Assembly (NCBI GenBank): GCA_947561715.1
Contig: OX387197.1
Coordinates: 2,113,001 to 2,177,000 of the forward strand
DNA from: Ascidia mentula
Taxonomy: Eukaryota; Chordata; Ascidiacea; Phlebobranchia; Ascidiidae
DNA: 64,000 nt
Direction of reading: 5' to 3'
The stretch's first letter is position 1. The number at the start of each line of letters is the position of its first letter. Of this stretch, positions 3,564-64,000 are shown one piece after another. A model generated the notes under the pieces. The model was not told the DNA's origin. It ran no database searches and saw nothing but the letters and a program-made list of their open reading frames with translations. Both the position numbers and the translations under genes were made by a program.

Positions 3564-3571
3564 AAATTTAC
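3564..3571. repeat. Left target-site duplication of the giant transposon (AAATTTAC)
   Basis: The 8-bp sequence AAATTTAC lies directly outside the left inverted repeat and is repeated exactly at 17056-17063 outside the right one. The unoccupied paralogous locus at 57072-57079 has it once, in the same flanking context (GATACAAATTTACTCTG). Confidence 0.95.
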
Positions 3572-6568
3572 ACCACCGTCATTTCGGCGAAATGAAATTT
3601 GGTTAAATTGCGAAATTATTTCACGCATGAATGAACACGGCTTCAAACAATTGTGTTCACACAAAATAAGCATTAACTCACGAAAAAAACAAAAATGAGT
3701 TGTAATAACAAACATTTCAATCAGCAAGGTGTCCAATATTTGCAAAACAATATCTACACTTTAAAATTGCAATTTTTGAACACCTATAAAGTACATAACA
3801 ACGAAATGGGTTTGACTGCGGTCACGCTGTGTGAATCCCAGCGATCGCGTATTTTCGGCGCTGCATACAAGTGCTAATTTAATGATGTTCCGGGCCATAG
3901 GATTTTTTAAAAATTGGTGTAGAATAGGCTTAGAACATGTAGATCACATTACAATAGCGTTTTTTGAACACCTATAAAGTATATCGCAACGAAATGGGTT
4001 TGACTGCGGTCACGCTGTGTGAATCCCAGTATTAGCGTATTTTCGGCGCTGCATACAAGTGCCAATTTAATAATGTTCCGGGCCATAGGATTTTTTAAAA
4101 ATTGGTGTAGAATAGGCTCAGAGCATGTAGATCACATTACAATAGCGTTTTTTGAACACCTATAAAGTATATCGCAACGAAATGGGTTTGACTGCGGTCA
4201 CGCTGTGTGAATCCCAGCATGCATGCGCATTGTTCGTCAAAGGCTTTGACTCAAACAGAAGGCAGTGAGCATTTGCGGCGCTGCATACAAGTGCCAATTT
4301 AATAATGTTCCGGGCCATAGGATTTTTTAAAAATTGGTGTAGAATAGGCTCAGAGCATGTAGATCACATTACAATAGCGTTTTTTGAACACCTATAAAGT
4401 ATATCGCAACGAAATGGGTTTGACTGCGGTCACGCTGTGTGAATCCCAGCGATCGCGTATTTTCGGCGCTGCATACAAGTACTAATTTAATGATGTTCCG
4501 GGCCATAGGATTTTTTAAAAATTGGTGTAGAATAGGCTTAGAACATGTAGATCACATTACAATAGCGTTTTTTGAACACCTATAAAGTATATCGCAACGA
4601 AATGGGTTTGACTGCGGTCACGCTGTGTGAATCCCAGTATTAGCGTATTTTCGGCGCTGCATACAAGTGCCAATTTAATAATGTTCCGGGCCATAGGATT
4701 TTTTAAAAATTGGTGTAGAATAGGCTCAGAGCATGTAGATCACATTACAATAGCGTTTTTTGAACACCTATAAAGTATATCGCAACGAAATGGGTTTGAC
4801 TGCGGTCACGCTGTGTGAATCCCAGCATGCATGCGCATTGTTCGTCAAAGGCTTTGACTCAAACAGAAGGCAGTGAGCATTTGCGGCGCTGCATACAAGT
4901 GCCAATTTAATAATGTTCCGGGCCATAGGATTTTTTAAAAATTGGTGTAGAATAGGCTCAGAGCATGTAGATCACATTACAATAGCGTTTTTTGAACACC
5001 TATAAAGTATATCGCAACGAAATGGGTTTGACTGCGGTCACGCTGTGTGAATCCCAGCGATCGCGTATTTTCGGCGCTGCATACAAGTGCCAATTTAATG
5101 ATGTTCCGGGCCATAGGATTTTTTAAAAATTGGTGTAGAATAGGCTCAGAACATATAGATCACATTACAATAGCGTTTTTTGAACACCTATAAAGTATAT
5201 TGCAACGAAATGGGTTTGACTGCGGTCACGCTGTGTGAATCCCAGCGATCGCGTATTTTCGGCGCTGCATACAAGTGCTAATTTAATGATGTTCCGGGCC
5301 ATAGGATTTTTTAAAAATTGGTGTAGAATAGGCTTAGAACATGTAGATCACATTACAATAGCGTTTTTTGAACACCTATAAAGTATATCGCAACGAAATG
5401 GGTTTGACTGCGGTCACGCTGTGTGAATCCCAGTATTAGCGTATTTTCGGCGCTGCATACAAGTGCCAATTTAATAATGTTCCGGGCCATAGGATTTTTT
5501 AAAAATTGGTGTAGAATAGGCTCAGAGCATGTAGATCACATTACAATAGCGTTTTTTGAACACCTATAAAGTATATCGCAACGAAATGGGTTTGACTGCG
5601 GTCACGCTGTGTGAATCCCAGCATGCATGCGCATTGTTCGTCAAAGGCTTTGACTCAAACAGAAGGCAGTGAGCATTTGCGGCGCTGCATACAAGTGCCA
5701 ATTTAATAATGTTCCGGGCCATAGGATTTTTTAAAAATTGGTGTAGAATAGGCTCAGAGCATGTAGATCACATTACAATAGCGTTTTTTGAACACCTATA
5801 AAGTATATCGCAACGAAATGGGTTTGACTGCGGTCACGCTGTGTGAATCCCAGCGATCGCGTATTTTCGGCGCTGCATACAAGTGCTAATTTAATGATGT
5901 TCCGGGCCATAGGATTTTTTAAAAATTGGTGTAGAATAGGCTTAGAACATGTAGATCACATTACAATAGCGTTTTTTGAACACCTATAAAGTATATCGCA
6001 ACGAAATGGGTTTGACTGCGGTCACGCTGTGTGAATCCCAGTATTAGCGTATTTTCGGCGCTGCATACAAGTGCCAATTTAATAATGTTCCGGGCCATAG
6101 GATTTTTTAAAAATTGGTGTAGAATAGGCTCAGAGCATGTAGATCACATTACAATAGCGTTTTTTGAACACCTATAAAGTATATCGCAACGAAATGGGTT
6201 TGACTGCGGTCACGCTGTGTGAATCCCAGCGATCGCGTATTTTCGGCGCTGCATACAAGTGCTAATTTAATGATGTTCCGGGCCATAGGATTTTTTAAAA
6301 ATTGGTGTAGAATAGGCTTAGAACATGTAGATCACATTACAATAGCGTTTTTTGAACACCTATAAAGTATATCGCAACGAAATGGGTTTGACTGCGGTCA
6401 CGCTGTGTGAATCCCAGTATTAGCGTATTTTCGGCGCTGCATACAAGTGCCAATTTAATAATGTTCCGGGCCATAGGATTTTTTAAAAATTGGTGTAGAA
6501 TAGGCTCAGAGCATGTAGATCACATTACAATAGCGTTTTTTGAACACCTATAAAGTATATCGCAACGA
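3572..6568 (+). repeat. Left inverted-repeat arm of the giant transposon
   Basis: The arm is 2997 bp and pairs with 14249-17055 in reverse orientation. The outer part (3572-3780) differs from the right arm by scattered substitutions, and the two ends share ATTTCGGCGAAATG near the tip. Similarity ends at the CGCAACGA motif around 6561-6568, where the unique interior begins. The left arm holds 14 array units and the right holds 13. Confidence 0.92.
3781..6544 (+). repeat. Tandem array, 14 units of 188 or 232 bp
   Basis: CACCTATAAAG recurs at 3781, 3969, 4157, 4389, 4577, 4765, 4997, 5185, 5373, 5561, 5793, 5981, 6169, 6357 and 6545. That gives eleven 188-bp and three 232-bp units (2764 bp). 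Unit types differ after the shared GTGTGAATCCCAG: type A has CGATCGCG, type B has TATTAGCG, and type C carries a 44-bp longer segment beginning CATGCATGCGC. The order is A B C A B C A A B C A B A B, a higher-order pattern with local changes. Units of one type are almost identical, which suggests recent unequal exchange or conversion. Confidence 0.95.
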
Positions 6569-7291
6569 AATGAACTTGTCCTAGATGTATTTTTCTGAAA
6601 TTTTGCTGAGAAACTTGTACTTTTCGATGTCTTCTATATTGTCAGACAGGCGACTAAATGAAAACCAAATTTGAAACCCGTCAACAAAAACAATGGAAGC
6701 GATGAATCGATTGAACAATTGCTCCCTTTGGTTTGGCAAGGATTATTTTTTTTCTTCCCGCAGACTTCGATCGCATAACCCTTTAACTTCACTGATAGTA
6801 AAGTAAATTGGCAGGCCAGACAGCAGACGTGATAAAACTTAAAGGGTCGTAAATTGAAACAATGGAACAAGGAACTGATTGAACAATTGTATCCTACGAA
6901 GTGGCAAAATTTATTTTACTTCCCACAAGGTCCGAAACGTCAGAACTTGATTGATCAAGACGTGAACAAACTTGGAAGGACGCATATAAAAACAAAGGAA
7001 GCTGCGAACCGATCGAACAATTGTTTTGCGGAAAACTTTGGAAATTGATTTCCCTTCCCGCAGGTTTAGAAACGTAGCAATTGTTGCATCTTATGTGTTT
7101 CGATTTGTCCCCCGTTGGGCTTGACCGGTCCAGTCAAATCGCCAATTTACTTTTCGATCTGTCAAATCATTTTTTTCTTTTTTTGCGAACACCCTATTAA
7201 AACTCGTGTGTTTTTAAATTCTGTCATAATATGAACAACTTACAACAAGTCAGCGAGTTGACTTTGAGAAGCTAGTTGTTATTTTTGCAGT
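6569..7291 (+). other. Transposon 5' leader with three degenerate internal repeats
   Basis: Unique interior between the left array and the transposase frame. It holds three imperfect repeats: related AACAATGGAA-type and GAACAATTG motifs recur near 6690-6720, 6858-6890 and 6993-7022. Pyrimidine-rich TTCCCGCAG or TTCCCACAAG tracts follow at about 6755, 6919 and 7053. No promoter motif can be named with confidence. The frame at 6854-7048 lies inside these repeats and is not treated as a gene. Confidence 0.6.
7281..7290 (+). promoter_or_regulatory. 3' splice acceptor one base before the transposase start codon
   Basis: A pyrimidine tract ending TATTTTTGCAG stops at 7290, and the ATG is at 7292-7294. 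This is a good 3' splice site. It could end a 5'-UTR intron, or it could accept a spliced leader if the host uses trans-splicing, as tunicates do. No matching upstream donor was established. Confidence 0.5.
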
Positions 7292-10200
7292 ATGGTCACA
7301 TTCAGAGAAGTTATTTTCAAGATTTTTGTGCCATGTGTTGCTGGTAGCAATTTAAAACGCAGAGAGGTTGCAAAGGCGACCGACTGTAGTTTTCGTCCCT
7401 ATGTTGGACAATGTTTTGGAGGTAAGCATGTCGTGGGTGAAAATTTGTTAAACCCCATGGCATGGATTTGGTTGTTACGCATTTTATTTTTTTTGGTCCA
7501 AGATTTTTTTTTCGTTTTATTAGCATTTCTTGTGTTTTACACACTATTTATGTTGTACTGTTTGTGTGCTATTGGCACTGGCTACATATTTAGCGTTGTT
7601 CTGCATGCATTACTACATGTACCTGGTCCACACAGAATTTATGTTAGACTGTTTTCTACTTCTAATTGTGCTCACCCGAGGCAGCCTAATCTAATATATG
7701 GCATAAATTGCACCGGCTTACGCAGTCTAATACCATCGGGTAAGTTAATGTGGTGTGTAACGCGCACTGGTGGTTCCAGATTTGTAACTTCCGAAGACAA
7801 AATGAACCTCATTGCAAAGTATTTGTCCATGCGTGGTCGTAAAAACTTTAGTAGAAACCAAGCACAAGACTTTCTCAGCAACTGTAATCTTTGGGAGGGT
7901 TTGCATTCCAGGAAACGTGTGAAACGGCTTTTTAACTTTTGTCGTTCTTTTCGCACGGAAATTAATACTTTATTAAGTAAATGTTCTGGCTTTGAATCCA
8001 CGCCGTTTAGAAAACAGAATATTTTTTTTAGTGCTGTGCCGTCACTGGTAAAACATTTACACAGATATCCAAACACTTCAAAATTGCCGTGTAAGGCGGT
8101 TAATGCCACGTTGAAGTCTTGCAAAATTGCCCTAAGCACAAAAAACAAGCTTAAAGTGAACAGACTCTGGGTAATAGACCCGATGTTTCGACAATCTGTA
8201 CAAGATTTGTATAACAGGTCAAAGGGATTTAATACTACACCAGTCCCAGTATTAAGTAGTAGTACCCCTTCACGTTCTGAAGATCTTTTCTGCATTTGCA
8301 AAACCCCTTATGATGGTAGATTGATGGTAGAATGCGAAACATGCAAACAATGGTTTCACCCTAGTTGTGTTTTTACAAGTTTGTCTGTTCCCGCAACACT
8401 TTCTGAAAAACAATGGAAACGTTCTCGCCTCGTTTGTCCAGGTGTAAAACTTTCCTCACCACATAGCTATGAGCACATGTTGGTTGAAAGTGAAAGCATG
8501 GACGGTTTAGTTGGTGATAGAGACCCAAGTTTACCTTCCTCAAGCAAACGTTGTAAGGTAAGTTTGTCTCCTATATTACCGGATGTACCTATTTCTCCAA
8601 TTAGAAACACACTGGATAATTTGTCCAGTGAAATAACCTCTGAAACTTCCCCTAATGTAACAGAAACGTTTGAGGACGATATGGCAACAATTGTATATCG
8701 TGATTTACCTTTTGATGAAAATGCTGACGTTTTAAGTGAACTTGGGGGAATAAGTAACGAAACAAAGCAAAAGTTTCCGCACACAGCAGACGTCAATATA
8801 GATGGTGTGTTTGTTCTATATGTGCAGGAATGGCAGTCATTAGTCAAAAATAGATCCGTCAACCATTTTGCTAACGATTTTTACATAGGAGTAACAATTA
8901 GGGAAATTCGCAAAATATACCCAGGCTGTGTTCCAAACGTGTCCAACAACTATCTTATGAGTTTTGATGGGGTAAAAGACATTACAAAGGAAGAAAAATG
9001 TTATAAAGAAGGTTGGATTAACTTTTATTGCGGTCACCGCAGATGTGAAGATTGTGTGTGTGGAGTCAGGTTTGTAGTAACGTTTTGGTCTTTTGTTGAT
9101 AAAGTTGAAGGAAGGGTTAAAATATCAGGTAAGCGTAACCACCTACCAGGCTGTAAGAAAAGTAGACGAATAACTGGAATAATGAGGATGAAACTTCGAA
9201 AGACATTGGTTCATCAAACCGCTGTCAAGCAGCATCGCACATTATTTAACACGCTTTATCCAGAAGAACGATGGCTGGGTGCCCATACGTACCTGCCTTC
9301 CCAATCGGTCTTGAACAATATAAAAAGCGAAACGTATCTCGGAACACGTAGAAGTAAGTTGTGGTTTATTGATTTGGATTGTTTGCGTGTCGTGTTGGCA
9401 AATCAAAATAAACCATTTATCAGGAACATTCGTTTACACCCTCCAGAAGTAACGCTATATTCCAATGCACAAATAAAAATTTTTAATCAAATTTGTGCCT
9501 TTGATATTGCGTACTTGGATGCGACCGGCAGCGTGCTTCGACGCATGGAAAGTTACTCTGATTTTCAAATATATACATTACTAATTCGAAACCCTAATAA
9601 GGGTGGGACACCGCTTCCAGTTGCAACTCACGTAACATCGAAGCATGATGCGGTAAACATCAGTCATTTTTTGGAAACATTTTTGTCGGATTGCCTCAAA
9701 ATATGCAGCACCGTACGCAAACCAAAACTACTTGTTATTGATGGCTCGTTCGCTATGTGGAACTCCGCTTTAAAGGCATTTTGTCACGAAACACGATTGA
9801 CCTTTTACAACCGATGTTACCGTATTGTTACAGGAGTTCCGTTGAAGAATGACATGCAAGAAACTTTCATGCACAATTGCTATAGCCATGCCATGAAAGC
9901 AGCTAAAGTGCTATGCAACAAGTATAGTGAAAATAAAAAACTCCTGAAAACATACTTGTATTGGATTAATGCATTTTTTTGTTGTGTAACTATTTTTGAA
10001 CTAGATAGTATGGTGGAAAGTTTTATAGTTTTAACCAATAACGAATCCACTTCATCATTAGTGGAACTTCATTTTAAGCGTTTAAAAGAAAAGGTATTTT
10101 CTGACCAAGCCGACTGCGACATTAACGAAGGCGAATGTTTTGTTTCTAATTCCGATTTTGTTTACACATCCAAGCATTCAGATAAACTGCAAGAACGCCA

Positions 10201-13129
10201 ATCACCTTTTTATCTCAGATATCGAAGCAAGCTTGACTCCTACTTGAAGTCGGATGTGTCCCAGAAGTTCAATACAAGTACCAGTAAAAATGTGTATTAC
10301 AACCCAACATTTTGTGCACGTGTAATAGAAATAATTTTGAGTAGAATTTGTGCTACATCAAAATTACTGCTGGGGGATTTATCCCGACATATAAACAAAG
10401 AAAAAACCACTCATCAACAGGAACAACTGTTTAATATGTACTCAAGTAAATGTAACTTGTTAAAAAATTTTAAACATCAGACCATTTTACAGAACAATCA
10501 AACGCAAGGAATAATCGAAGAGCATTTTGGTGACCTGAAATCAAACATATTAGACGGAAAAAGAGTTGCGCGATTAGATGAATTTGTCATTAAATATCAT
10601 GAATCAATACTAATTTTACAAAAATTATTTGCAGATTCCATTACACATTTATATACCAAGCCTGGCAGACGTACAAATGTCACTTCGGATGCTGTCAAGC
10701 GTACGCAGGTGGTAGAATCTAAATTCAAAAAGAGAAAAAGAAAAGAGAAAAGTTTTTACTCTTCAGAAACGTTTTCTCAAAATCTGAAATACGCAAATAA
10801 GCCATGCGATTCCTCTCAAAAATTCGAAAAACTTATTGTCACCCCAGTTCTGCCACGTTTTACGTTTTGTCCAGATCACAGCGAAATTCATACATCGTGC
10901 AAAGATCTTGCTTACTATGTTTGGCATCTTATTCCATTTACTCCCACTTCTATTTTTAATACAGCTTTAGTCACGCCTTCTGGTGAGTCACTGTCATGGT
11001 TGGATTTGTGTTCGCTTTGCAGTAAACCTAGAGGTAAAACCTATATCTCTTTAACTCAAAATCCAATCAACACTCATAATGATGCAACGATTGGATGGTT
11101 AACCAATAATGTAGTAGATTGTTATATTTCCAGAACAGTCAGAAATGCTAATTCCGTACACCCTGGTAAGTTTGGTTTTCTTTCAACCGTATTAGCAGGT
11201 GAAATACTGAGTGGAAAGAAGTTAAAAAACATACGAAGGGCATGCCATGGAATGTTTTTTGGAGAAAAATTGTGCGAAAATATTTTCATTCCAACATTGT
11301 TCGAGCGACATTTTGTGGTTTTATGGTTTAAACAGGTTAATGGAGAACTGATACTTTTTAATTCAGCTCCGGGGTCCAGCAGACAATTATCAAGTTTAAT
11401 TAGGAAAAACTTGATACCGATTTTATGCGTTTTCACAAGCAATGAAATCATACAGAAAAACAGCTCACTAGTTGAGCAGGAAGATTTGTCAAGTTGCGGC
11501 TTATGTGCATGTTTTACTGTTGACACCATTACAAACTATGTACTGAAGGTAAGTGAATTGGAATTTGTTGTTGCGCGCTTTCGCATTTGGATGTTATACG
11601 CGTTAGTTGAAGACTCTGCAAGTTGCAGTGACAAAGTTGCACTATTTTTGAAGAAAAATAGTTTGGTCCAGCTGGGTCTCCCTAATGTTCACAACAACTG
11701 TTGGTTAAGTAGTCTGTTTCAAGCAGCCCAATGTTTATTTGATGAGATTCCAGCGGCTACCATCGGTGAAACTTTACGAGAAAGAATCGCTAACTTCATT
11801 TGTCGCCTCTATCTCAAACAATCAGATAACAACTTGTACTTGCAGTTGGTCAAAGATGTATGTGGCGCACTTGGCTGGAAGTTGGGTCAGCAACAAGACC
11901 CAAATGAATTTTTAATGGTATTTGATTTTAGCTCTATTTTAAAATACTGTAATCTTAACATGTGTTTTCAGTACAAAACATCTGCAACTTGCCAGTCCTG
12001 TGGTAATGTTACCGAGTCAGTGCAAGAACAATCTCTACTGAAGTTGCCTGTTGCCGATAACATTGCTGACAATAGTGATCTGGCCACATACTGTGATGCT
12101 GAGTTTCGAAACACGGTATTTAGGACATGCCCCTTTTGTCATAAACAAGCTACCACAAATATGGAAGGCCAGATCACTGATGTTTCGAATATATTGTGTA
12201 TTGGACTTCACAGAAATGTGGATGGCCACAAACGAAAGAGAAGAATCGTTCCAAATCAGGTTTTACATATTTCGCAACATTTCTCTTTTCAGTTAGTGTC
12301 CGTTCTCGTGCACATTGGAGACAGTGTAAGGTCGGGTCACTACGTGGCGTATCAATTTTGTGAATCTGGTTTAACTGAATTTGATGACGCAGTTTTAAAA
12401 CACGTCACTTGGGCTAGTGTTAAAGAAAGAATTCTTACTGGTTGTTGTACATTATTTTACAAAAGAGTTAAATCTAACCTTCACGATCCTAACCAGCAAC
12501 CAAAGATTGTAATTCGTCGGAAGCGACGCCGCTTCAACGAAGAGGCAGCAAAATCAACCGAATGCCTGGTTTATAAAAATATTACTTTAAAACAACAAGT
12601 TAACGGTAAAGATGTTGAAATTTCGGAATTGGACGATTTATCTTCAGACATTAAAGATATCTACGATTTCGTTGCGAAACAGCTCAAAACAGTTCTTTTT
12701 CAGACGTTTGAACAAGGTCAGTTCCGGACAGATTGTTACCGCCTTTGTTTATGTTACCGGGAACACACTAAAAGCCTTATAATGTATAATCAAACTGTAC
12801 GGCAACAAATATTATCGGCAAATGTCCATATGAACCTTTGGAGATTTGTAGAGTTCTCCTTTTGTCAACTCCTTATCCGACAACAACTCGTGGGGACACA
12901 AATTTTTCGAAAATCTATTGCTGATTTTGTGCTAAAACCTGAGTTGATCAGTAAACATACCATGTTGGGACATATAGTGTTGGACAAAAAGATAAAATCC
13001 AGGTTTATTTTGTGTCAAATACTCAATTTTGAGGCAGAAATTCTGTACGTAATGAAATTTAATAATTTTACGTACGAAGATGCCTCTCTTAAGCTTGGTT
13101 TTCCTGCACTGATGTACAAAAATCTATAA
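7292..13129 (+). CDS. Transposase fused to PHD finger, Ulp1-like protease and USP deubiquitinase
   Basis: A 1945-residue protein that probably moves the surrounding element. Residues 55-110 are hydrophobic. A PHD finger follows (C334, C336, C348, C351, H356, C359, C382; the usual last Cys is not at its expected place). A Cys/His cluster (C585, C588, C590, H617, C621) sits before the catalytic core. The core shows LDATG with D743, then VIDGSFAMWNSAL with D817, then IIEEHF with E1076/E1077 as the candidate third acid. A basic KKRKRK stretch near 1150 could be a nuclear signal. A Ulp1/C48-like domain has H1340, N1357 where Asp is usual, Q1396 and C1402. A USP domain has C1470 in NNCWLSS, QQDPNEF near 1534, zinc pairs C1567/C1570 and C1613/C1616, H1683 and D1698/D1699. 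The ~220 C-terminal residues are not recognised. An in-frame 102-nt intron (7422-7523) is possible. Domain calls are from motifs only. Confidence 0.93.
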   Translation: MVTFREVIFKIFVPCVAGSNLKRREVAKATDCSFRPYVGQCFGGKHVVGENLLNPMAWIWLLRILFFLVQDFFFVLLAFLVFYTLFMLYCLCAIGTGYIFSVVLHALLHVPGPHRIYVRLFSTSNCAHPRQPNLIYGINCTGLRSLIPSGKLMWCVTRTGGSRFVTSEDKMNLIAKYLSMRGRKNFSRNQAQDFLSNCNLWEGLHSRKRVKRLFNFCRSFRTEINTLLSKCSGFESTPFRKQNIFFSAVPSLVKHLHRYPNTSKLPCKAVNATLKSCKIALSTKNKLKVNRLWVIDPMFRQSVQDLYNRSKGFNTTPVPVLSSSTPSRSEDLFCICKTPYDGRLMVECETCKQWFHPSCVFTSLSVPATLSEKQWKRSRLVCPGVKLSSPHSYEHMLVESESMDGLVGDRDPSLPSSSKRCKVSLSPILPDVPISPIRNTLDNLSSEITSETSPNVTETFEDDMATIVYRDLPFDENADVLSELGGISNETKQKFPHTADVNIDGVFVLYVQEWQSLVKNRSVNHFANDFYIGVTIREIRKIYPGCVPNVSNNYLMSFDGVKDITKEEKCYKEGWINFYCGHRRCEDCVCGVRFVVTFWSFVDKVEGRVKISGKRNHLPGCKKSRRITGIMRMKLRKTLVHQTAVKQHRTLFNTLYPEERWLGAHTYLPSQSVLNNIKSETYLGTRRSKLWFIDLDCLRVVLANQNKPFIRNIRLHPPEVTLYSNAQIKIFNQICAFDIAYLDATGSVLRRMESYSDFQIYTLLIRNPNKGGTPLPVATHVTSKHDAVNISHFLETFLSDCLKICSTVRKPKLLVIDGSFAMWNSALKAFCHETRLTFYNRCYRIVTGVPLKNDMQETFMHNCYSHAMKAAKVLCNKYSENKKLLKTYLYWINAFFCCVTIFELDSMVESFIVLTNNESTSSLVELHFKRLKEKVFSDQADCDINEGECFVSNSDFVYTSKHSDKLQERQSPFYLRYRSKLDSYLKSDVSQKFNTSTSKNVYYNPTFCARVIEIILSRICATSKLLLGDLSRHINKEKTTHQQEQLFNMYSSKCNLLKNFKHQTILQNNQTQGIIEEHFGDLKSNILDGKRVARLDEFVIKYHESILILQKLFADSITHLYTKPGRRTNVTSDAVKRTQVVESKFKKRKRKEKSFYSSETFSQNLKYANKPCDSSQKFEKLIVTPVLPRFTFCPDHSEIHTSCKDLAYYVWHLIPFTPTSIFNTALVTPSGESLSWLDLCSLCSKPRGKTYISLTQNPINTHNDATIGWLTNNVVDCYISRTVRNANSVHPGKFGFLSTVLAGEILSGKKLKNIRRACHGMFFGEKLCENIFIPTLFERHFVVLWFKQVNGELILFNSAPGSSRQLSSLIRKNLIPILCVFTSNEIIQKNSSLVEQEDLSSCGLCACFTVDTITNYVLKVSELEFVVARFRIWMLYALVEDSASCSDKVALFLKKNSLVQLGLPNVHNNCWLSSLFQAAQCLFDEIPAATIGETLRERIANFICRLYLKQSDNNLYLQLVKDVCGALGWKLGQQQDPNEFLMVFDFSSILKYCNLNMCFQYKTSATCQSCGNVTESVQEQSLLKLPVADNIADNSDLATYCDAEFRNTVFRTCPFCHKQATTNMEGQITDVSNILCIGLHRNVDGHKRKRRIVPNQVLHISQHFSFQLVSVLVHIGDSVRSGHYVAYQFCESGLTEFDDAVLKHVTWASVKERILTGCCTLFYKRVKSNLHDPNQQPKIVIRRKRRRFNEEAAKSTECLVYKNITLKQQVNGKDVEISELDDLSSDIKDIYDFVAKQLKTVLFQTFEQGQFRTDCYRLCLCYREHTKSLIMYNQTVRQQILSANVHMNLWRFVEFSFCQLLIRQQLVGTQIFRKSIADFVLKPELISKHTMLGHIVLDKKIKSRFILCQILNFEAEILYVMKFNNFTYEDASLKLGFPALMYKNL

Positions 13130-14248
13130 AATCCATGTTGTTGTGAATACTTTGTGTCGATTTGTGTTCATTTCCGTGACTGTATGTTTGTTGTATGAGA
13201 CTTTTTAAAACTTCACCAACGTGAAACCAAAAAAAATATTTGTGTTGTTTGGGTCGTTGCATGCCTTAAGTTGTAGTAATCGCAATTATGCTGTGAATGT
13301 TTTGTTTTTGTGTTAATCTTATATTTTTTGCATTTGCCGCTAGGACAAACCTCTTGTACTTAAAATCGTTGTTGCGTTAATCAATGTAAGGCCAGATATG
13401 TTATTTTACCCAATAATTTTAAAGGCCGTGGTCTACTTATGCTAAAATCTTATTAGAACTCGCTTTAACTTTAAACTCCAACTTCAATCTGCCAAATAAC
13501 TGTTTATTTGTTAAATCTTTAAAATAAATCCACTACGGTTGCCGGAACCTTGACGTGGTGTAGTGGCTTTAAACAAATACCGGCAAGTGATACAATATGT
13601 TTGTAAAATTATTTTTGCAAAAGCTTATGTGACTTTAAACACAATTCAAAGCGTTTTTTACCGCCCAAAAGTATCCTTGTGTCCTTTTATTGAATGGTAA
13701 TGTAAAATCATTTACATTAATTACAAAAATTTTGTTTGTAGTTTGCCAACCCACCGTCGTAGCTGCCCCACAAGTAGTGAGAAGCTGCAACACTATGGTT
13801 TCTAGCAAACGAAAAGAAAGATGAATTTTAAACAACTTACCTGTATCGCAACAGAGGCCTCGTTGGAAGTGCGGCCGCACACAATGCCCCCAGGAATTTC
13901 TCAAAATTTTTTTTTTAATGATGCTAAATAGCTGAGTATGCTGCGACGCACCATTGACGCCTTGTTAAATCCCCATTGGGCTTTGCTACGCCACACAAGA
14001 TAAAGAATCGTCACTTAATCAATGAAAACGTTCACCCACATAATTCACTGTAATGTGATATCAGTTAAACGTCGACGTTGCCACTTAAAATTCATCCCAC
14101 ACATTTTCGAAACACGGACATATTCGAAAATACCTCCATTTCTGTTTTGAATGATTTTTTTTCGCAACATTTACATTGTTATGCGTGGGCGGAAATAAAA
14201 AAGGGGAGATTGTGATACTAAGAGGTATATTTAATTAACATGACATAA
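13130..14248 (+). other. Transposon 3' untranslated and interior region
   Basis: Unique sequence between the stop codon and the right arm. A poly(A) signal AATAAA lies at 13523-13528, about 400 nt after the stop. A short pair CCGGTTGCCGG...ACCGGCAAG around 13540-13590 could form a small hairpin. The minus-strand frame at 13635-13904 shows no domain. Nothing else is recognised. Confidence 0.6.
13523..13528 (+). terminator. Likely polyadenylation signal of the transposase transcript
   Basis: Canonical AATAAA about 394 nt after the transposase stop codon, in AT-rich sequence. It is a plausible cleavage signal, based on the motif only. Confidence 0.45.
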
Positions 14249-17055
14249 TCGTTGCGATATATTTTATAGGTGTTCCAAAAACGCTATTGTAATGTGATCT
14301 ACATGTTCTGAGCCTATTCTACACCAATTTTAAAAAATCCTATGTCCCGGAACATTATTAAATTGGCACTTGTATGCAGCGCCGCAAATGCTCACTGCCT
14401 TCTATTTGAGTAAAAGCCTTTGACGAACAATGCGCATGCATGCTGGGATTCACACAGCGTGACCGCAGTCAAACCCATTTCGTTGCGATATACTTTATAG
14501 GTGTTCAAAAAACGCTATTGTAATGTGATCTACATGTTCTAAGCCTATTCTACATTAATTTTTAAAAAATCCTATGGCCCGGAACATCATTAAATTAGCA
14601 CTTGTATGCAGCGCCGAAAATACGCTAATACTGGGATTCACACAGCGTGACCGCAGTCAAACCCATTTCGTTGCGATATACTTTATAGGTGTTCAAAAAA
14701 CGCTATTGTAATGTGATCTACATGCTCTGAGCCTATTCTACACCAATTTTTAAAAACTCCTATGGCCCGGAACATTATTAAATTGGCACTTGTATGCAGC
14801 GCCGAAAATACGCTAATACTGGGATTCACACAGCGTGACCGCAGTCAAACCCATTTCGTTGCGATATACTTTATAGGTGTTCAAAAAACGCTATTGTAAT
14901 GTGATCTACATGCTCTGAGCCTATTCTACACCAATTTTTAAAAAATCCTATGGCCCGGAACATTATTAAATTGGCACTTGTATGCAGCGCCGAAAATACG
15001 CTAATACTGGGATTCACACAGCATGACCGTAGTTAAACCCATTTCGTTGCGATATACTTTATAGGTGTTCAAAAAACGCTATTGTAATGTGATCTACATG
15101 CTCTGAGCCTATTCTACACCAATTTTTGAAAAATCCTATGGCCCGGAACATTATTAAATTGGCACTTGTATGCAGCGCCGAAAATACGCTAATACTGGGA
15201 TTCACACAGCGTGACCGCAGTCAAACCCATTTCGTTGCGATATACTTTATAGGTGTTCAAAAAACGCTATTGTAATGTGATCTACATGCTCTGAGCCTAT
15301 TCTACACCAATTTTTAAAAAATTCTATGGCCCGGAACATTATTAAATTGGCACTTGTATGCAGCGCCGAAAATACGCTAATACTGGGATTCACACAGCGT
15401 GACCGCAGTCAAACCCATTTCGTTGCGATATACTTTATAGGTGTTCAAAAAACGCTATTGTAATGTGATCTACATGCTCTGAGCCTATTCTACACCAATT
15501 TTTAAAAAATTCTATGGCCCGGAACATTATTAAATTGGCACTTGTATGCAGCGCCGCAAATGCTCACTGCCTTCTGTTTGAGTCAAAGCCTTTGACGAAC
15601 AATGCGCATGCATGCTGGGATTCACACAGCGTGACCGCAGTCAAACCCATTTCGTTGCGATATACTTTATAGGTGTTCTAAAAACGCTATTGTAATGTGA
15701 TCTACATGCTCTGAGCCTATTCTACACCAATTTTTAAAAAATCCTATGGCCCGGAACATTATTAAATTGGCACTTGTATGCAGCGCCGAAAATACGCTAA
15801 TACTGGGATTCACACAGCGTGACCGCAGTCAAACCCATTTCGTTGCGATATACTTTATAGGTGTTCTAAAAACGCTATTGTAATGTGATCTACATGCTCT
15901 GAGCCTATTCTACACCAATTTTTGAAAAATCCTATGGCCCGGAACATTATTAAATTGGCACTTGTATGCAGCGCCGAAAATACGCTAATACTGGGATTCA
16001 CACAGCGTGACCGCAGTCAAACCCATTTCGTTGCGATATACTTTATAGGTGTTCAAAAAACGCTATTGTAATGTGATCTACATGCTCTGAGCCTATTCTA
16101 CACCAATTTTTAAAAAATTCTATGGCCCGGAACATTATTAAATTGGCACTTGTATGCAGCGCCGCAAATGCTCACTGCCTTCTGTTTGAGTCAAAGCCTT
16201 TGACGAACAATGCGCATGCATGCTGGGATTCACACAGCGTGACCGCAGTCAAACCCATTTCGTTGCGATATACTTTATAGGTGTTCAAAAAACTCTATTG
16301 TAATGTGATCTACATGCTCTGAGCCTATTCTGCACCAATTTTTAAAAAATCCTATGGCCCGGAACATTATTAAATTGGCACTTGTATGCAGCGCCGAAAA
16401 TACGCCAATACTGGGATTCACACAGCGTGACCGCAGTCAAACCCATTTCGTTGCGATATACTTTATAGGTGTTCAAAAAACGCTATTGTAATGTGATCTA
16501 CATGCTCTGAGCCTATTCTACACCAATTTTTAAAAAATCCTATGGCCCGGAACATTATTAAATTAGCACTTGTATGCAGCGCCGAAAATACGCCATCGCT
16601 GGGATTCACACAGCGTGACCGCAGTCAAACCCATTTCGTTGCGATATACTTTATAGGTGTTCAAAAAACGCTATTGTAATGTGATCTACATGTTCTGATC
16701 CTATTCTACACCAATTTTTAAAAAATTCTATGGCCCGGAACATCATTAAATTGGCACTTGTATGCAGCGCCGAAAATACGCGAATGCTGGGATTCACACA
16801 GCGACACCGCAGTCAAACCCATTTCGTTGTTTTATACTTTATAGGTGTTCAAAAATTGCAATTTTAAAGTGTAGATATTGTTTTGCAAATATTGGACACC
16901 TTGCTGATTGAAATGTTTGTTATTACAACTCATTTTTGTTTTTTTCGTGATTTAATGCTTATTTTGTGTGAACACAATTGTTTGAAGCCGTGTTCATTTA
17001 TGCGTGAAATAATTTCGGTTTTTACCAAATTCCATTTCGCCGAAATGACGGTGGT
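14249..17055 (-). repeat. Right inverted-repeat arm of the giant transposon
   Basis: This is the 2807-bp reverse-complement partner of 3572-6568. It begins at the TCGTTGCG motif that mirrors the inner end of the left arm and ends at CGCCGAAATGACGGTGGT. It has one array unit fewer than the left arm and more single-base differences between units. The outer ~210 bp (16847-17055) is unique, as in the left arm. Confidence 0.92.
14266..16840 (-). repeat. Tandem array, 13 units of 188 or ~232 bp, inverted
   Basis: ATAGGTGTTC recurs at 14266, 14497, 14685, 14873, 15061, 15249, 15437, 15669, 15857, 16045, 16277, 16465, 16653 and 16841. There are ten 188-bp units, two of 232 bp and one of 231 bp. Most 188-bp units here are type B; two outer units (near 16595 and 16783) read CATCGC or CGAATG and are variants. 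The composition therefore differs from the left array, so the two arms have not been fully homogenised against each other. Confidence 0.93.
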
Positions 17056-17063
17056 AAATTTAC
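17056..17063. repeat. Right target-site duplication of the giant transposon (AAATTTAC)
   Basis: Exact copy of 3564-3571, directly outside the right inverted repeat, and followed by TCTGTT as in the unoccupied paralogue at 57080. Confidence 0.95.
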
Positions 17064-20467: not shown

Positions 20468-23400
20468 ATGGCAGTTTCCTCACATACTGCGAATCCAGAA
20501 GAACTTCATATAGTAAGTATCACCTGTTTTATGTTTATATAATATTCTAATGCAATATTTTTTTGTCAGTTAAGGGAATTCAAAGCTGAAAACATATTTT
20601 GTGATGTCGAAAAATGTGAAGTTGGCCAAGGTAGTTTTGGTAAAATTTTCATTGGAAAACATAAAAAAACTGGATTTTTTGCTGTCAAGTTTTTTAAAAT
20701 TACTGGTGGAGAACATGAGCAATTGATGCTGGAGAATGAGTAAGTTATATGGCTCAGTTTAACTGCCCATAAAAAATATTCACATGTATTTTTAGGTTTA
20801 ACCAAGAATACGATGTGTTACTGCGTATTCGCCATGACAACATATCAATTGTTCATGGATACACCAAATGGCCAGGAGCAATCGGGATTGTAATGCAATT
20901 CTATGGAGGGGGTAATTTAGAAGTCTTACTCCTGGATAAACGTATTGAACTTGGATCGTGTTTGATTCTCCGCATGACAACTGAAATAACATCAGCAGTT
21001 GCATACATTCATAATTGCGGGCTTGATAAGCGTGTAGTCCATGGCGATCTTAAGCCTGGAAACATATTCATCACAATAGACATGCGTTGCGTAGTTGGTG
21101 ACTTTGGATGTGCTCGGCTTGTAAACTTTACTCAGGCAGCAACTCAGATTCAAGGTCAACAAAAACGACAACCATTGACATTGTACTATGCGGCACCAGA
21201 AAAATTATCTGATGACGTTAAACCAAAAAAGGAGCAAGACGCATACAGTTGTGGTGTAATTTATTATGTCATGCTGGCACGCAAGCAGCCATATCCCTCA
21301 GCTGATATTTTTTGGCTAAAAATTCAAAATGGTGGTCGTCCAAACCTTCAAGGTATTAGAGAAATACAGGACAGAACCAATGATCCAAACAACAGAGAAA
21401 TAGTTGATGTGATGGAAAGAGCGATGATCAGATGTTGGAATCAAGATCCAAATCAACGACCAGGCATGGTTGATATTCGCGATGAATTCCAACAACTTCT
21501 TTCCAAACAAGATTCCTCAGTAATTTTGCAGCAGGTGGCAAATGCTGCAAGGAACATGCATATCGTGGATCCAACAGCAACCCACAATCCAACTGTTCCA
21601 CTCAGCCAGTTTTCAACACAGACATGGAAATTTCATGGTAGCATTTTGTTTGTCAGTTTCATGATTTCAAGTTTGTTTTGTATCATACTTCCACAATAGT
21701 GTTTATGTACAATGGAACTCTTATATTGATATACATGCTTTATATCTCTTTTTTTGTGTAATATTTGTTGAGGGTTTTTGTTTGTAGATGTTGGGTCTGA
21801 AATTAACCGACCACTTGATGGCAACATTCATCAAGTTGAACAAGCACAACAATCCCCACAAGTACAAGGTGAGCAATTTATGTTGCAAAATAATTATCCA
21901 AGTATGTGGGTGTCAGAGGCTGTAATCCTTTTTCAATGCAAGCTACCTGGCCGAAAGCATAAACATTGCGCTTATAGAGTTAGCTGCAGGAATTGAAAAG
22001 AATGCATTTTAATTTCGAAAAGTATTCAAAATTATTTTTGATAAGATTATGAGAAATCTTTCCAAGCCAACATTTGTTCCACCCTGACAAAGGTCATTGT
22101 TTTTGAAAGCAGAATAAAGCCTATATCACCCATACATACATACAACAAAACACTTGGGATTGAGAATTTTTCTGAATTGCTACTTCCCAAACAAGTTTGA
22201 TGTAAACTATACTGTTTTCAGATGAATTAGCAATTGCTGAAGTTGCCCAGATGCAAATAAACCAGATACAACCCACTACATCGCAAAATAGAGGTTTTGT
22301 AACCAAACATAAAATATTCTGTCAACTAATGCTAATAACTGCTCTTTATGTTATTATGAATTGGAATATAACAAGTTACTATGAACTAAAACATAATAAT
22401 AATTTTCTGATTGAATAAATAATGCCTAAATGCAATGCATTTAACTGCATTTTCGCTTATCTTAGACGCAAACAGAAGATCTGCAAGACATGTTACACCC
22501 CAAAACCAACCCAGTGAAAGAAACCTTCCAGTGGATGATGACTTGCCCAACCCATCACCAGGAAGAAGTGGAAGAGGTAATTTTGTCTTGGAAGTAATCC
22601 TACTGTTTCCATTGTACATGATCTATCTGCTAAAAAAGTTTTGAGACTGTATAACCTCACTATAAAAGAGTAAGTTATTTTTAGGTGTTGAACTTGAAGC
22701 TTAAAAATGATCGAAAACACCTTCATAAAACAGTAGTGTATAAATTTAGGTGTTAACCTTGAAATTGATCCACCACTTGAGGGCAACATTCAGCCTAGTG
22801 AAAGAGAACAGCAATCACCGCAAGTACAAGGCAAGTGTTTGGGTACAGACTTGTGTTTCTTTATTTCTTTTTATTCTCAAAATCTGAACACAGCAAGTAG
22901 AAGATGTACAAGTTATGCTACACCAGAACCTCCACCCATTGGAGGAAGGCTTTCTACAATGAGAGGTAAAAAGGGTATATATATAATCTGACATGGTTAG
23001 CATTGAGCATAGCAGCGTGACAGAATCAACACCAACATGTGAAGTATAATTTGCAACAAAAATGTTGGTTTGATGTTTGTGTATGACAGCTGTAAGAATA
23101 CCCCATATTGCAGCTACTTCACATGCCTTATGAAATGATTGTCATAAGTAGGTTTAATATATCAGTTTAATGGATCTTGTACCTTGTTTATTTTTGTTGC
23201 ATGAAAACAGATAATCAGTTTATTGCAAGCAATAATACTGTACAATTTCACACCAGAAAAAGTGAAACCTGTTACCAACCCTCTGACACCACCTAGTGAC
23301 CGTAACCTTAGAGTAGATCATTCCACACCCCACTCATCCCATCAACAACCAGGTAAATTAAAACGGGTGATAACGTAACAAACAAAACATATGTAAGATA

Positions 23401-32643: not shown

Positions 32644-35600
32644 ATGGCCTTTGCCTCATCTGTTGATGACACACAAGGACTAGATATTGTAAGTATAACA
32701 CAGCTGTACGCATTGAATGTCGTGTAATTAACTGTTGTATTTTTCAGCTGAGAGAATTTAAAGCTGAAAACATCTTTTGTGACATCAATCTGTGCGTGGT
32801 CGGTCAAGGTAGCTATGGCAAAGTTTTCCTTGGAAAACATGAAAAAGTGGGGTTTCTTGCTGTCAAGTGTTTGAAAGTCGCGGGTGGAGAACATGAACAA
32901 CATCTGTTTGAAAAAACGTAAAATTGTGCTTTTAAACAAATTTCTGTGACTTATTAATAATTTTTGTAGTGAATGAACTAAAGTCAAGATAGTTCAACAT
33001 ATTATTTATATTTCTTGTAGATTTAGACACGAATATAAGAATTTACTGCAATCTCGTCATGACAACATATCAACTGTTCATGGGTACACCAAGTGGCCAG
33101 GAGCAATCGGGATTGTAATGCAATTCTATGGAGGTGGAAGTTTAAGAATTCTAATCCTGGATCAAGATATTGAACTGGGCCCTGGTTTGATTCTTCGCAT
33201 GGCAACTGAAATAGCATCAGGAGTTGCCTACATTCACAACTGTGGAATCAACAAGCGATTGGTTCACTTAGATTTAAAGCCAGAAAATATTTTCATCACA
33301 CCTGACTTGCATTGCATAATTGGTGACTTTGGATGTGCTCGGTTGGTCCAACTGACGTCAGGATCAACAACTCAACTCCCCGGTCAATCAAAATCACAGG
33401 GATTGACACTTTACTATGCAGCACCAGAAAGGCTTCTTCATGATGCAAGACCTAAAAAAGAACAGGATGCTTATAGCTGTGGTATCATCTATTTTGAGAT
33501 GCTAAGTCGTGAACAACCATACCAGTCAGAACAAGGATTCTGGAACAAAATTAGGCAGGGTCTACGACCTGACTGTGAAGCAATACAAAGCCTAAGAGAG
33601 CAAAGCAATGCAAACAGCAGAGAAATAGTTGATTTGATGGAAAGTGCGATGATCAGATGTTGGGATCAAGATCCAAATCAACGTCCAGACATGGTCCACG
33701 TTCGTGATGAATTCCAACAACTTCTTTCCAAACAAGATCCCACAGTAATTTTGCAGCAAGTAGCAAATGCTGCAAGGAACATGCATATTGTGGATCCAAC
33801 GGCAACCCACAATCCAACTGTTCCACTCAGCCAGTTTTCTACACAGACATGGAAGTTTCATGGTAAGTTTTGCATCATTGCATTTTTTTGTGGACTGGTG
33901 CTACTTTTTTGCTTTATAATTTTGCAATTTTTCTTTAAAAATGATTTTTTGTAGATGTTGGTCCAGTAATTGATCCTCAACAGTGGGGAAATATTCAACC
34001 AAGAGATCGAACACAACAACCTCCACAAAGACAAGGCAAGTATAAGTTTGAATGCACAACACATAAGCCCCTTAACTAAAAATGTTCCACACCCCTAAGT
34101 GTTGAATTGAATCTAGTGCAACTATGCCAGCAACGAAAACCTTGGATTGCAAGTTTTGTGAAATTTCCTACAAAAACACTTTCCCGAAAAACATTGATCT
34201 AAATTAAACATAGTTCATTTTTCCATACATTTGATTTACTGTTTTATTATGTCTCAAGATACAAGTGGACAATCTGCAAGTCACGCCACACCCCAAAACC
34301 CACCCAGTGAAAGAAACCTTCCAGTGGATGATGACTTGCCCAATCCATCACCAGGAAGAAGTGGAAGAGGTAGTAACAGCAATTTGCAGTGGTTACAGTG
34401 GTTGTATATTCACCACAAACTGGAAATCTTTGCCTTCAAAGATTCACACCAAGCTGCACTGATGAGACCTTATATCAGAGGTTCTTAACCTGCGGTCCAT
34501 GAACCCCCAAGGGGTCCGAGAAGATGCATTAAGGGGTCCATGAAACGAAATACAATTATTCCGGAAATCCACGTATTTTCCTCTGTCCATAAGGTTTCGC
34601 TGTCCACAAATTTAAATTTTTCGACATTTGCAATGTGTTTCTTGCAAAGGGGTCCATAGCTTTTCAAAGAATGTTTTAGGGGTTCGTGATCCAAAAAAGG
34701 TTAAGAAACACTGCCTTATATGATGAAACAGTGGCCATCTGTATGCAGCTCACAGAAATCATATTATTGGCTCCACGTTGCTTGTCTATATTGACCAAAT
34801 ATTTCAATTTGCAGATGTTGGATTTGATGTTAATCTACTACCACTTGGGGGCAATAATCATCAAATTGAGAGAGAACACCAATTACCACAAGCACAAGGC
34901 AAGTGTTAAATAAAACCAAATGCATGATAATATTAATATGAAAGTGAATGCAAATAAAATTTCACGCAATAAAAACTGCAAGCTGATAACAGAAATTTAA
35001 TGTTAGTGTGACGTTTGTTATACAGGAGAAAGTATGTGGACTGCAATGGATTCAAGTGATGTCACAAATCCAAAACTTCCAGTTGGTAAGAACTTTCAAA
35101 ATTTAAACTGGTTGGGTTTACAAACAATCAAATGCCGTTGTTTGTGTGCCCCGCTATTTTTTATATGAGTTGTTTTCACTGTACTGCAATTGATGAGTGT
35201 TTTTGTTTGTATATGTAGAAACTGAAATGATTCAAACACTTGAGGGATTAATTCAGACAGGTGATCGAGAACAACAATTACCACAAGTACAAGGCAAGAA
35301 TTTTGTGTTGTGACATTATGATGGATTGCTTCTTTTGTTGGAGATAATTGCCAGATTGTTTTGAAATCACTGATACCAGCAAATGAACATATGGAAATTC
35401 TGTTGCATTTCCTCCAAAAGTAGATCCTAAACACATTTGATGTAAATTGTATAGCATTTTTATGTTAGCACTGCATGTTTCACTGAGTTGCCCATTCACA
35501 AAGCAGATGTTATTGTCACCAAATTTGACGTAACCTTTACAGGAAACTGATTCATATAAAATAATATAACACAAAAACATGTCAACAACTACCCAGACTA

Positions 35601-61678: not shown

Positions 61679-64000
61679 ATGGCTTTTGCCTCGTTTGGTA
61701 ATGAACAAGAAGCACTTGATATTGTAAGTATATCACAATTTTGTGCGTTGAATGCATTTTAACAAAATCATGTGGTAATTTAAAGTAATATTTATTTTCA
61801 GCTGAGGGAATTCAAAGCAGAAAACATCAAGTGTGACGTCAAACTGTGTAAAGTCGGTCAAGGTAGTTTTGGTGAAGTCTTGCTTGGAAAACATGAAAAA
61901 GTTGGATTTCTTGCTGTGAAGTGTTTAAAATTCATTGGTGGAGAACATGAACAACATCAGTTTGAAAAAATGTAAGATTGGGGTTTCATACCTTTGCCAA
62001 TATTTTTAATGGCAGCATGTCATTATTCAACTTTATTTGAAAAATTTAAAGATGTTTCAAACACAAGTAAGTTCATCATTAGTGCAATTGTTAAATGACT
62101 GAGGTGATTGCACCAGCTGCGCCAACATGAAGACAGAAGCATAGTTAACTGGTAAACACCACATATTCTACACAGATCTAAAGTAAAAACCAAACTATTA
62201 ATTCGAAAAAGGCCTTATCCAACATTACAGACCATTACTTAATATCGGTGATCACTCCATGCTGTTTTACCTGTACATTTACCACATAGTTGTGCACTTC
62301 AGTTTGACAAAATATCACTGCCTTGCAAATTCTCATGCTGTCATCATTATTATGATTTTGTTTTCTTTCTCATCTTTTCATCCATCTTCCTATTGGTGAG
62401 CACAGCCAGTGCAGACAGTCTCAGTCATTTAATAGTTGCACCGATGATGAACGCAGTTGTGTTTGTTAAAACGTTTGCTTATTGTGACATTTAACAGCAT
62501 CTTATTCAAAGTGGAAAGCTATATGCACATAATCATGTATAATTTCTTGCAGATTCAGACGTGAATATAAGAATTTACTGCGATCTCATCACGACAACAT
62601 ATCAACTGTTCATGGATACACCAAGTGGCCAGGAGCAATCGGGATTGTAATGCAATTCTATGGAGGTGGAAGTTTGAGAATTCTACTCCTGGATGAAGAT
62701 ATTGAACTGGGCCCTGGTTTGATTCTTCGCATGGCAACTGAAATAGCATCAGGAGTTGCCTACATTCACAACTGTGGAATCAACAAGCGATTGCTTCACT
62801 TAGATTTGAAGCCAGAAAATATTTTCATGACACCTGACTTGCATTGCATAATTGGTGATTTTGGATGTTCCCGATTGGTCCAACTGACATCAGGATCAAC
62901 AACTCAACTTCCCGGTCAATCAAAATCACAGGGGTTGACACTTTACTATGCAGCACCAGAAAGGATTCTTCAAGATGCAAGACCTAAAAAAGAACAGGAT
63001 GCCTACAGCTGCAGTATCATCTATTTTGAGATGTTAAGTCGTGAACAACCATACCAGTCAGAACAAGGATTCTGGAACAAAATTAGGCAGGGTCAACGAC
63101 CGGACTGTGAAGCAATACAAAGCCTAAGAGAGCAAAGCAATGCAAACAACAGAGAAATAGTTGATGTGATGGAAAGTACGATGATCAGATGTTGGGATCA
63201 AGATCCCAATCAACGACCAGACATGGTTGACATTCGGGATGAATTCCAACAACTTCTTTCCAAACAAGATCCCACAGTAATTTTGCTGCAAGTAGCAAAT
63301 GCTGCAAGGAACATGCATATTGTGGATCCAACAGCAACCCACAATCCAACTGTTTCACTCAGCCAGTTTTCAACACAGACATGGAAGTTTCATGGTAAGT
63401 TTTACATGATTTATTTTTTTCAGACTATTTTGTGGAATGGTGCAACTTTTTTGCTTTATAATTTTGCAATTTTACTGTAAAATAATTTTTTTGTAGATAT
63501 TGGTCCAGTAATTGATCCTCTATTTGGGGCAAACATTCAACCAAGAGATCGAACACAACAACCTTCACAAAGACAAGGCAAGTATTATTATTTGTTATGT
63601 CAGTGGTATCTGACCCAAGAGTTTCCGCAATAGTTAACTTCATTGCCTTGTTCATATGATTGTTGGAATTAGCAACTGATTTTCATTGTGTTTAAAGAAC
63701 ATAACTAAATTAATCGGTATATGGCAAAATATTAAGTTTGACACACAAGCCCCTTAACTAAAAATTTTCCGCACCCAAATGTCTGACCTTTTTTGTCATT
63801 GTCCCAAAGTGTTGAATTAAATATAATGCAACCATGCCTGCAAACGAACACCTTGGATTGCAAGTTTTGTTAAATTTCTGACAGAAATACTGCCCCAAAA
63901 AAACCTTGATGTAAATTAGGCAACACACAAGCCCCTTAACTAAAATGTTCCGCACCCCATTGTTTGGCCTTACTGATGTAAATTAGACATAATTCATTTT
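61679..64000 (+). CDS. Kinase-Kelch fusion gene, copy E (5' part, runs off the window)
   Basis: Exons seen: 61679-61723, 61802-61971, 62553-63394, 63497-63577. Exon lengths (45, 170, 842, 81) are identical to copies B and C, and the frame is open. Kinase signs: GQGSFGEV loop, AVKCLK lysine, HLDLKPEN, GDFGCSRL, AAPERIL. Intron 2 is larger than in the sisters (581 nt) because of extra sequence around 61990-62520. The donor after exon 4 is GC (GCAAGT). In the last 260 bp, CACAAGCCCCTTAACTAAAA occurs twice (63743 and 63927), an internal intron duplication. Further linker and Kelch exons are expected beyond 64000. Confidence 0.82.

Follow-up and report, generated by a model that had tools for sequence, protein, structure and literature searches.

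Ulp1, OTU and VTD proteases recur across unrelated transposons. The presence of Ulp1 in MULEs and CACTA elements is established (PMC13317346, PMC2528002; these and the other papers cited below were available in part, and statements on them refer to the available text). Ginger1 transposases carry a C-terminal Ulp1 or OTU domain, one family combining Ulp1 with a PHD finger, and a Trichomonas protein joins transposase_11 to Peptidase_C19 (PMC2836005). In Helitrons with VTD and OTU deubiquitinases, a single transposon protein carries two proteases of the tag-removing type (PMC9741609). Rehavkus elements, which are grouped with or beside MULEs, have one ORF, a transposase with a PHD finger, and inverted termini that contain satellite-like tandem units; Rehavkus-1_TC is 9.5 kb long and contains 164-bp tandem units (Repbase; PMC6446971, PMC10218199).

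The window analyzed here is a 64,000-bp stretch of Ascidia mentula DNA (C1:2113001-2177000 of a 196-Mb genome in 79 contigs). It contains an element whose single long sense frame joins a PHD finger and a putative transposase to two predicted proteases, one of Ulp1/SENP type and one a USP-type deubiquitinase (Table 1). Rehavkus, compared by description only, is the closest known system by architecture: the PHD finger and satellite/minisatellite terminal arrays are both present in the window element, the arrays also in one relative. However, Rehavkus has 9-bp duplications and 26-400-bp TIRs, as opposed to the 8-bp duplications and arms of about 3 kb in the window element, and the available descriptions (PMC6446971, PMC10218199) mention no protease, whereas the present protein carries both Ulp1 and USP. 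Because of the 9-bp duplication of Rehavkus, the element was not assigned to that group; an 8-bp duplication was also found at one diverged relative with a similar tip (on contig C2).

With MULEs the element shares the D, D, CxxH, E order, long TIRs, duplications of 8-10 bp and the association with Ulp1 (PMC13317346, PMC2528002), but here Ulp1 and USP are fused within the putative transposase itself. Plain MULE membership was rejected, since neither PF10551 nor a profile of host MULEs gave a match. In the MULEs of this host, a separate Peptidase_C48 match lies 1.2-1.9 kb downstream on the same strand in at least 30 cases (30 of the 49 matches used); a MULE accompanied by a separate Ulp1 gene is thus common in this genome. 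Zisupton elements likewise generate 8-bp duplications but are multi-exonic by description (PMC12730594, PMC9297572), and KDZ membership was rejected for lack of a PF18758 match. Ginger1, similar in its C-terminal protease, differs in its Gypsy-type integrase core and its TIRs of 44-270 bp, with no USP mentioned in the available text (PMC2836005); Ginger membership was rejected because the window protein matched no integrase family. The Helitrons, also equipped with two tag-removing proteases, differ in their rolling-circle RepHel protein, which has no DDE transposase, and in the protease classes involved (PMC9741609).

According to the sequence-only reading, no transposase also carrying a complete USP was known. 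This point is weakened by the Trichomonas protein with transposase_11 and Peptidase_C19 (PMC2836005, available text), but a single transposase with both Ulp1 and USP was not found in the literature searched. A literature search, with Repbase and most subscription papers outside its scope but Rehavkus included as a topic, found no transposase that combines Ulp1 with a deubiquitinase of the USP or ubiquitin hydrolase kind; an earlier description, above all among the Rehavkus entries, may exist. Precedents exist for either protease alone and, in Helitrons, for a pair of DUBs; as far as the available sources go, the new part is the combination of Ulp1 with USP. With two proteases kept under selection and mostly intact copies of about 99% identity, such an element would offer a direct test of whether transposons have to overcome SUMO and ubiquitin in order to move.

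Element ends, copies and target site duplications

The complete transposon spans positions 3572-17055 (13,484 bp) and encloses the 1945-aa ORF; the only other frame of at least 200 aa inside it (209 aa) is antisense to this ORF. Both tips read ACCACCGTCATTTCGGCGAAAT, and the inverted arms (~3 kb) are about 97% identical. Neither the terminal repeats nor the target duplications had been part of the sequence-only reading.

Table 1. Features of the element and of its predicted protein (positions in the window; residues of the 1945-aa frame).
Feature	Position	Strand	Remarks
Left 8-bp target site duplication	3564..3571		AAATTTAC
Left terminal inverted repeat arm	3572..6572	+	tip ACCACCGTCATTTCGGCGAAAT; 188/232-bp tandem array from about 3773
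Single open frame	7292..13129	+	1945 aa, without internal stop
Hydrophobic, membrane-helix-like segment, residues 60-110	7469..7621	+	in 6/6 covering sequences
PHD finger, residues 334-382	8291..8437	+	nearest sequence types PHF2/SPP1/DIDO1
Conserved Cys/His cluster, residues 570-625	8999..9166	+	invariant C/H among relatives
Putative DDE transposase core, residues 735-1104	9494..10603	+	D743, D817, CxxH 863-866, E1076
Basic cluster, residues 1144-1151	10721..10744	+	nuclear-localization-like; putative function
Ulp1/SENP-type protease, residues 1264-1436	11081..11599	+	H1340, N1357, Q1396, C1402
USP-type deubiquitinase, residues 1462-1712	11675..12427	+	C1470, QQD 1534-1536, zinc C1567/1570/1613/1616, H1683, D1698/D1699
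C-terminal region, residues 1726-1945	12467..13126	+	conserved; no fold assigned
Right terminal inverted repeat arm	14249..17055	-	188/232-bp tandem array and tip
Right 8-bp target site duplication	17056..17063		AAATTTAC

Many further element ends were found by a DNA search of the genome with the outer arm. Four additional ORF-bearing copies show 98-99% identity, and the frame is intact in three of them, that of the C67 copy being broken by small indels. Both ends were read for ten insertions of the family (the window copy, C67, two on C70, C69, C71 and four shorter ones), and perfect 8-bp duplications flank nine of these. With copies about 99% identical and frames mostly intact, the family has seemingly been active recently. 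The tenth insertion (L025), whose tips lie 3.9 kb apart, has no matching duplication and is perhaps a recombinant of two insertions.

A degenerate tip pattern gave 181 matches in the genome (196 Mb), compared to none for the reversed control. Among the 100 places listed, at least 30 convergent pairs of neighboring tips less than 40 kb apart were recognized; seven of the 30 pairs listed enclose a DNA match to the transposase region, and two of these belong to the window element's own family. Conversely, 21 such matches on contigs C1, C2, C52 and C67 comprise 7 within a tip pair and 14 outside.

Three insertions of 1.8-5.4 kb (L022, L023 and L024) consist mostly of arm sequence, lack any ORF match and have perfect 8-bp duplications; judged by sequence, they are foldback/MITE-like non-autonomous forms. 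At C71:810486-841778 (L018-L021) lies a 31-kb element whose tips are the same and whose 8-bp duplication, CAAATTTC, is perfect. The pieces of it that were read contain no transposase match, and two (L019 and L020) have no frame of at least 150 aa. This is perhaps a large cargo-carrying or nested copy.

The open reading frame and its relatives

The proposal that one polypeptide combines a transposase-like part with Ulp1-like, USP and PHD domains was borne out by the uninterrupted 1945-aa frame, which is intact in four of the five ORF-bearing copies. Nor is this architecture peculiar to one copy. A search of the genome with window bases 9410-10630 as DNA query gave 54 matching rows, and ten divergent relatives share 42-58% aa identity over 1040-1917 of the 1945 residues. 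Five of them (L038, L041, L043, L044 and L045) span the protein from N- to C-terminus. The others are partial, beginning at the PHD finger (L040), at about residue 240 (L035/L039 and L036/L046) or at about residue 445 (L034/L042), and L037 was read from about 548 to 1572 only, its frame being interrupted before that. Except for L037, each relative has a single open frame across the part read. The transposase-Ulp1-USP order is kept in all ten as far as they were read, and the PHD finger in eight; the L037 frame does not include it, and the stretch of L034/L042 may stop short of it. On the evidence of these copies and relatives, a chance origin of the ORF architecture is ruled out.

Of the 40 DNA rows used, 22 are followed on the same strand by a UCH match at a distance of less than 4 kb (5 of them in the window element's family), and 18, fragments included, have none. 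The relative on C2 is itself a TIR element (C2:8728268-8750140) with 182-bp tandem arms. Its ends, missed when tips were searched allowing up to 4 mismatches, were located by arm alignment. Its tip, ACTATTGTCATTCTGGCAGAAT, agrees with the window element at 15 of 22 positions, and intermediate forms occur in the genome; begun at ACTA, the element has flanks that give the 8-bp duplication ATGTGAAT. A search of viral contigs yielded no relative.

In a codon-usage scan trained on later residues, scores were lower upstream of residue 400, but the relatives indicate that residues 60-330 are coding. Within this part, residues 60-110 reach a 19-residue Kyte-Doolittle maximum of 1.80-2.74 in all six covering sequences, with dN of 0.23-0.25 against dS of 0.86-1.01 (two pairs, L044 being common to both). 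The hydrophobic segment thus looks coding and is apparently under purifying selection. Such a membrane-helix-like stretch is unexpected in a transposase and odd for a purely nuclear enzyme.

PHD finger and protease domains

Pfam analysis of the window protein identified the PHD finger claimed in the sequence-only reading (PF00628, residues 334-375, E=3.9e-7). Seven of the eight usual zinc ligands are present: C382 is kept and position 385 is not C. The nearest PDB structures by sequence include PHF2, SPP1, DIDO1, JHDM1D and BPTF. PHD fingers of this kind read H3K4me3. The residues F/Y333, Y340, M345 and W354 are kept in all nine alignment rows covering the domain. The Cys/His cluster at residues 570-625 is a possible DNA-binding zinc domain.

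The USP, for which a full C/H/D set and a zinc ribbon had been proposed, was confirmed by profile and by conservation. UCH (PF00443) matched residues 1462-1712 of the window protein (E=2.1e-9), and the cut-out USP piece gave UCH at 2.2e-11 as well as UCH_1 at 4.7e-6. The family USP profile matched 41 PDB sequences at E<=0.001, with USP12, USP46 and USP36 first (about 1e-11). The Cys box, His box, zinc ribbon and profile match that characterize C19 peptidases are all present.

The Ulp1-like H/N/Q/C set stands at the level of the family, but the window sequence alone matches no Peptidase_C48 profile in Pfam. PF02902 matches six of ten family members (best 2.7e-4), and in the PDB the family Ulp1 profile matched SENP1 alone (2/2 matches, E=0.0028), in an alignment that pairs the H, N/D, Q and C positions. 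At family level, both the H, D/N, Q, C set and the profile match expected of Ulp1/SENP (C48) peptidases were thus found.

In the alignment of the window protein with its ten relatives, D743, D817, C863, H866, E1076, H1340, Q1396, C1402, C1470, QQD 1534-1536, C1567 and C1570 are identical in all 11 sequences, and C1613, C1616, H1683 and D1699 in the ten that cover them. Position 1357 is N or D, and position 1698 is D or N.

The putative transposase core

The DDE core proposed from the sequence is supported by this invariance of D743, D817 and E1076 (position 1077 is E or Q), but not by any profile or fold match. Pfam searches of the region detected no transposase family, MULE (PF10551), KDZ/Zisupton (PF18758) and integrase families included, so that among the three parts searched with HMMs only UCH was recovered, and not MULE, KDZ or, on the window sequence, C48. 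Against the PDB, the family profile of the region gave one chance match only (E=0.21), and hhalign against a profile of three host MULE ORFs gave no match (Prob 0.7%). None of the 77 MULE and 9 KDZ profile matches across the genome lies inside the window. AlphaFold2 models built from the window sequence alone had a mean pLDDT of 32.3 and 35.5 (two models, the latter for the RNase H fold test).

These negative results, and the presence of 22 invariant acidic residues within positions 480-1120, D743, D817 and E1076 among them, would fit a frame that is not a transposase, with the three residues merely conserved acidics and another protein moving the element. We regard this as improbable: the 1945-aa frame is the sole long sense frame of the element, D743 and D817 each lie at the end of a hydrophobic run, and the MULE ORFs of this genome show the same order of D, D, CxxH and E, with LK six and seven residues after the E. 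The frame is probably a transposase, as judged from conserved motifs and residues and from the mobility of the element rather than from homology or a fold match.

Selection and exchange of the protease region

For unsaturated pairs of relatives with at least 10 synonymous changes (non-independent, since sequences recur among the pairs), dN/dS was 0.10-0.18 in the DDE part, 0.18-0.46 in C48 (6 pairs) and 0.24-0.46 in USP (4 pairs). One close pair, in which six synonymous changes were counted, gave a USP value of 0.70; L043 and L045 differ in USP by five nonsynonymous and no synonymous changes. The pooled value for the five youngest copies was 0.84, with too few changes to show selection. Among the relatives, the values from pairs with at least 10 synonymous changes show both proteases to be under purifying selection at the sequence level. 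Gene capture is frequent in transposons (PMC13317346, available text), and the proteases might be passengers, pieces of host genes that were picked up by chance. This explanation was rejected as very improbable, since the catalytic sets are intact in the covering relatives and dN/dS is below 0.5 for C48 and USP wherever changes sufficed.

In L035/L039, residues 500-1259 show 81-99% nucleotide identity to L036 and residues 1220-1939 show 93-98% to L038, whereas the identity between L036 and L038 over residues 700-1139 is 66-82%; dS for the mosaic was 0.07-0.12, compared to 1.3-2.6. By its sequence, L035/L039 is a mosaic that changes from one partner to the other near residues 1220-1260, close to the transposase/protease boundary. 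As its halves match L036 and L038, respectively, Ulp1, USP and the tail were replaced together, i.e. the protease pair is exchanged jointly between elements.

Proposed mode of action

Starting from the observed element ends, duplications, near-identical copies, domain order, retained catalytic residues and protease selection, we consider it likely (probability about 0.6) that this is an autonomous, recently active cut-and-paste transposon with foldback-like arms, whose transposase carries its own SUMO- and ubiquitin-removing domains, protecting it from degradation or silencing. The protein would enter the nucleus, where the PHD finger may tether it to H3K4-methylated (open) chromatin, and the N-terminal zinc domain and the repeated arm units would direct its assembly on the element. 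Excision and insertion would then be the work of the DDE core, presumably by DDE chemistry and with an 8-bp staggered cut, while Ulp1 and USP would free the transposase complex and the chromatin around it of SUMO and ubiquitin, their probable substrates. The enzyme could thereby evade degradation and SUMO-dependent silencing. For the Helitron DUBs, protection of proteins needed for transposition has been proposed (PMC9741609, available text).

The same architecture and selection data would fit proteases acting on DNA repair or chromatin factors at excision and insertion sites, and so aiding repair instead of shielding the transposase, a role suggested for those Ginger elements that carry Ulp1 or OTU (PMC2836005, available text). 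No datum here separates this explanation from the preferred one, but we consider it distinctly less probable. Self-cleavage after the manner of viral polyproteins, in which one or both proteases would cut their own polypeptide and so separate transposase and protease from a part bound to the membrane, would suit the single 1945-aa frame and would free an enzyme that the hydrophobic N-terminal segment would otherwise tether. Ulp1 and USP families, however, cleave at the C-termini of ubiquitin-like proteins, and Pfam matched no ubiquitin-like domain in the frame, which makes self-cleavage quite unlikely.

A broader extension of the preferred reading is offered tentatively, as we hold it somewhat more likely to be wrong than right. 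The 8-bp duplications, the satellite-built foldback arms and the tip ACYAYYGTCATYYYGGCRRAAT might define a separate superfamily of cut-and-paste transposons, in whose transposase a dual SUMO/ubiquitin-removing module is a permanent part and is swapped as a cassette among lineages, and the hydrophobic segment may keep the enzyme at the nuclear membrane.

Other sequences in the window and genome

Clusters of short C48-type pieces were detected at C1:26.84-27.07 Mb and C1:23.07-23.09 Mb; from their sequence they resemble exons of SenP-like genes belonging to a family that has expanded locally. The window also contains three protein kinase-like frames on the plus strand (20815-21699, 33118-33954 and 62650-63480), which perhaps represent a local kinase gene family.
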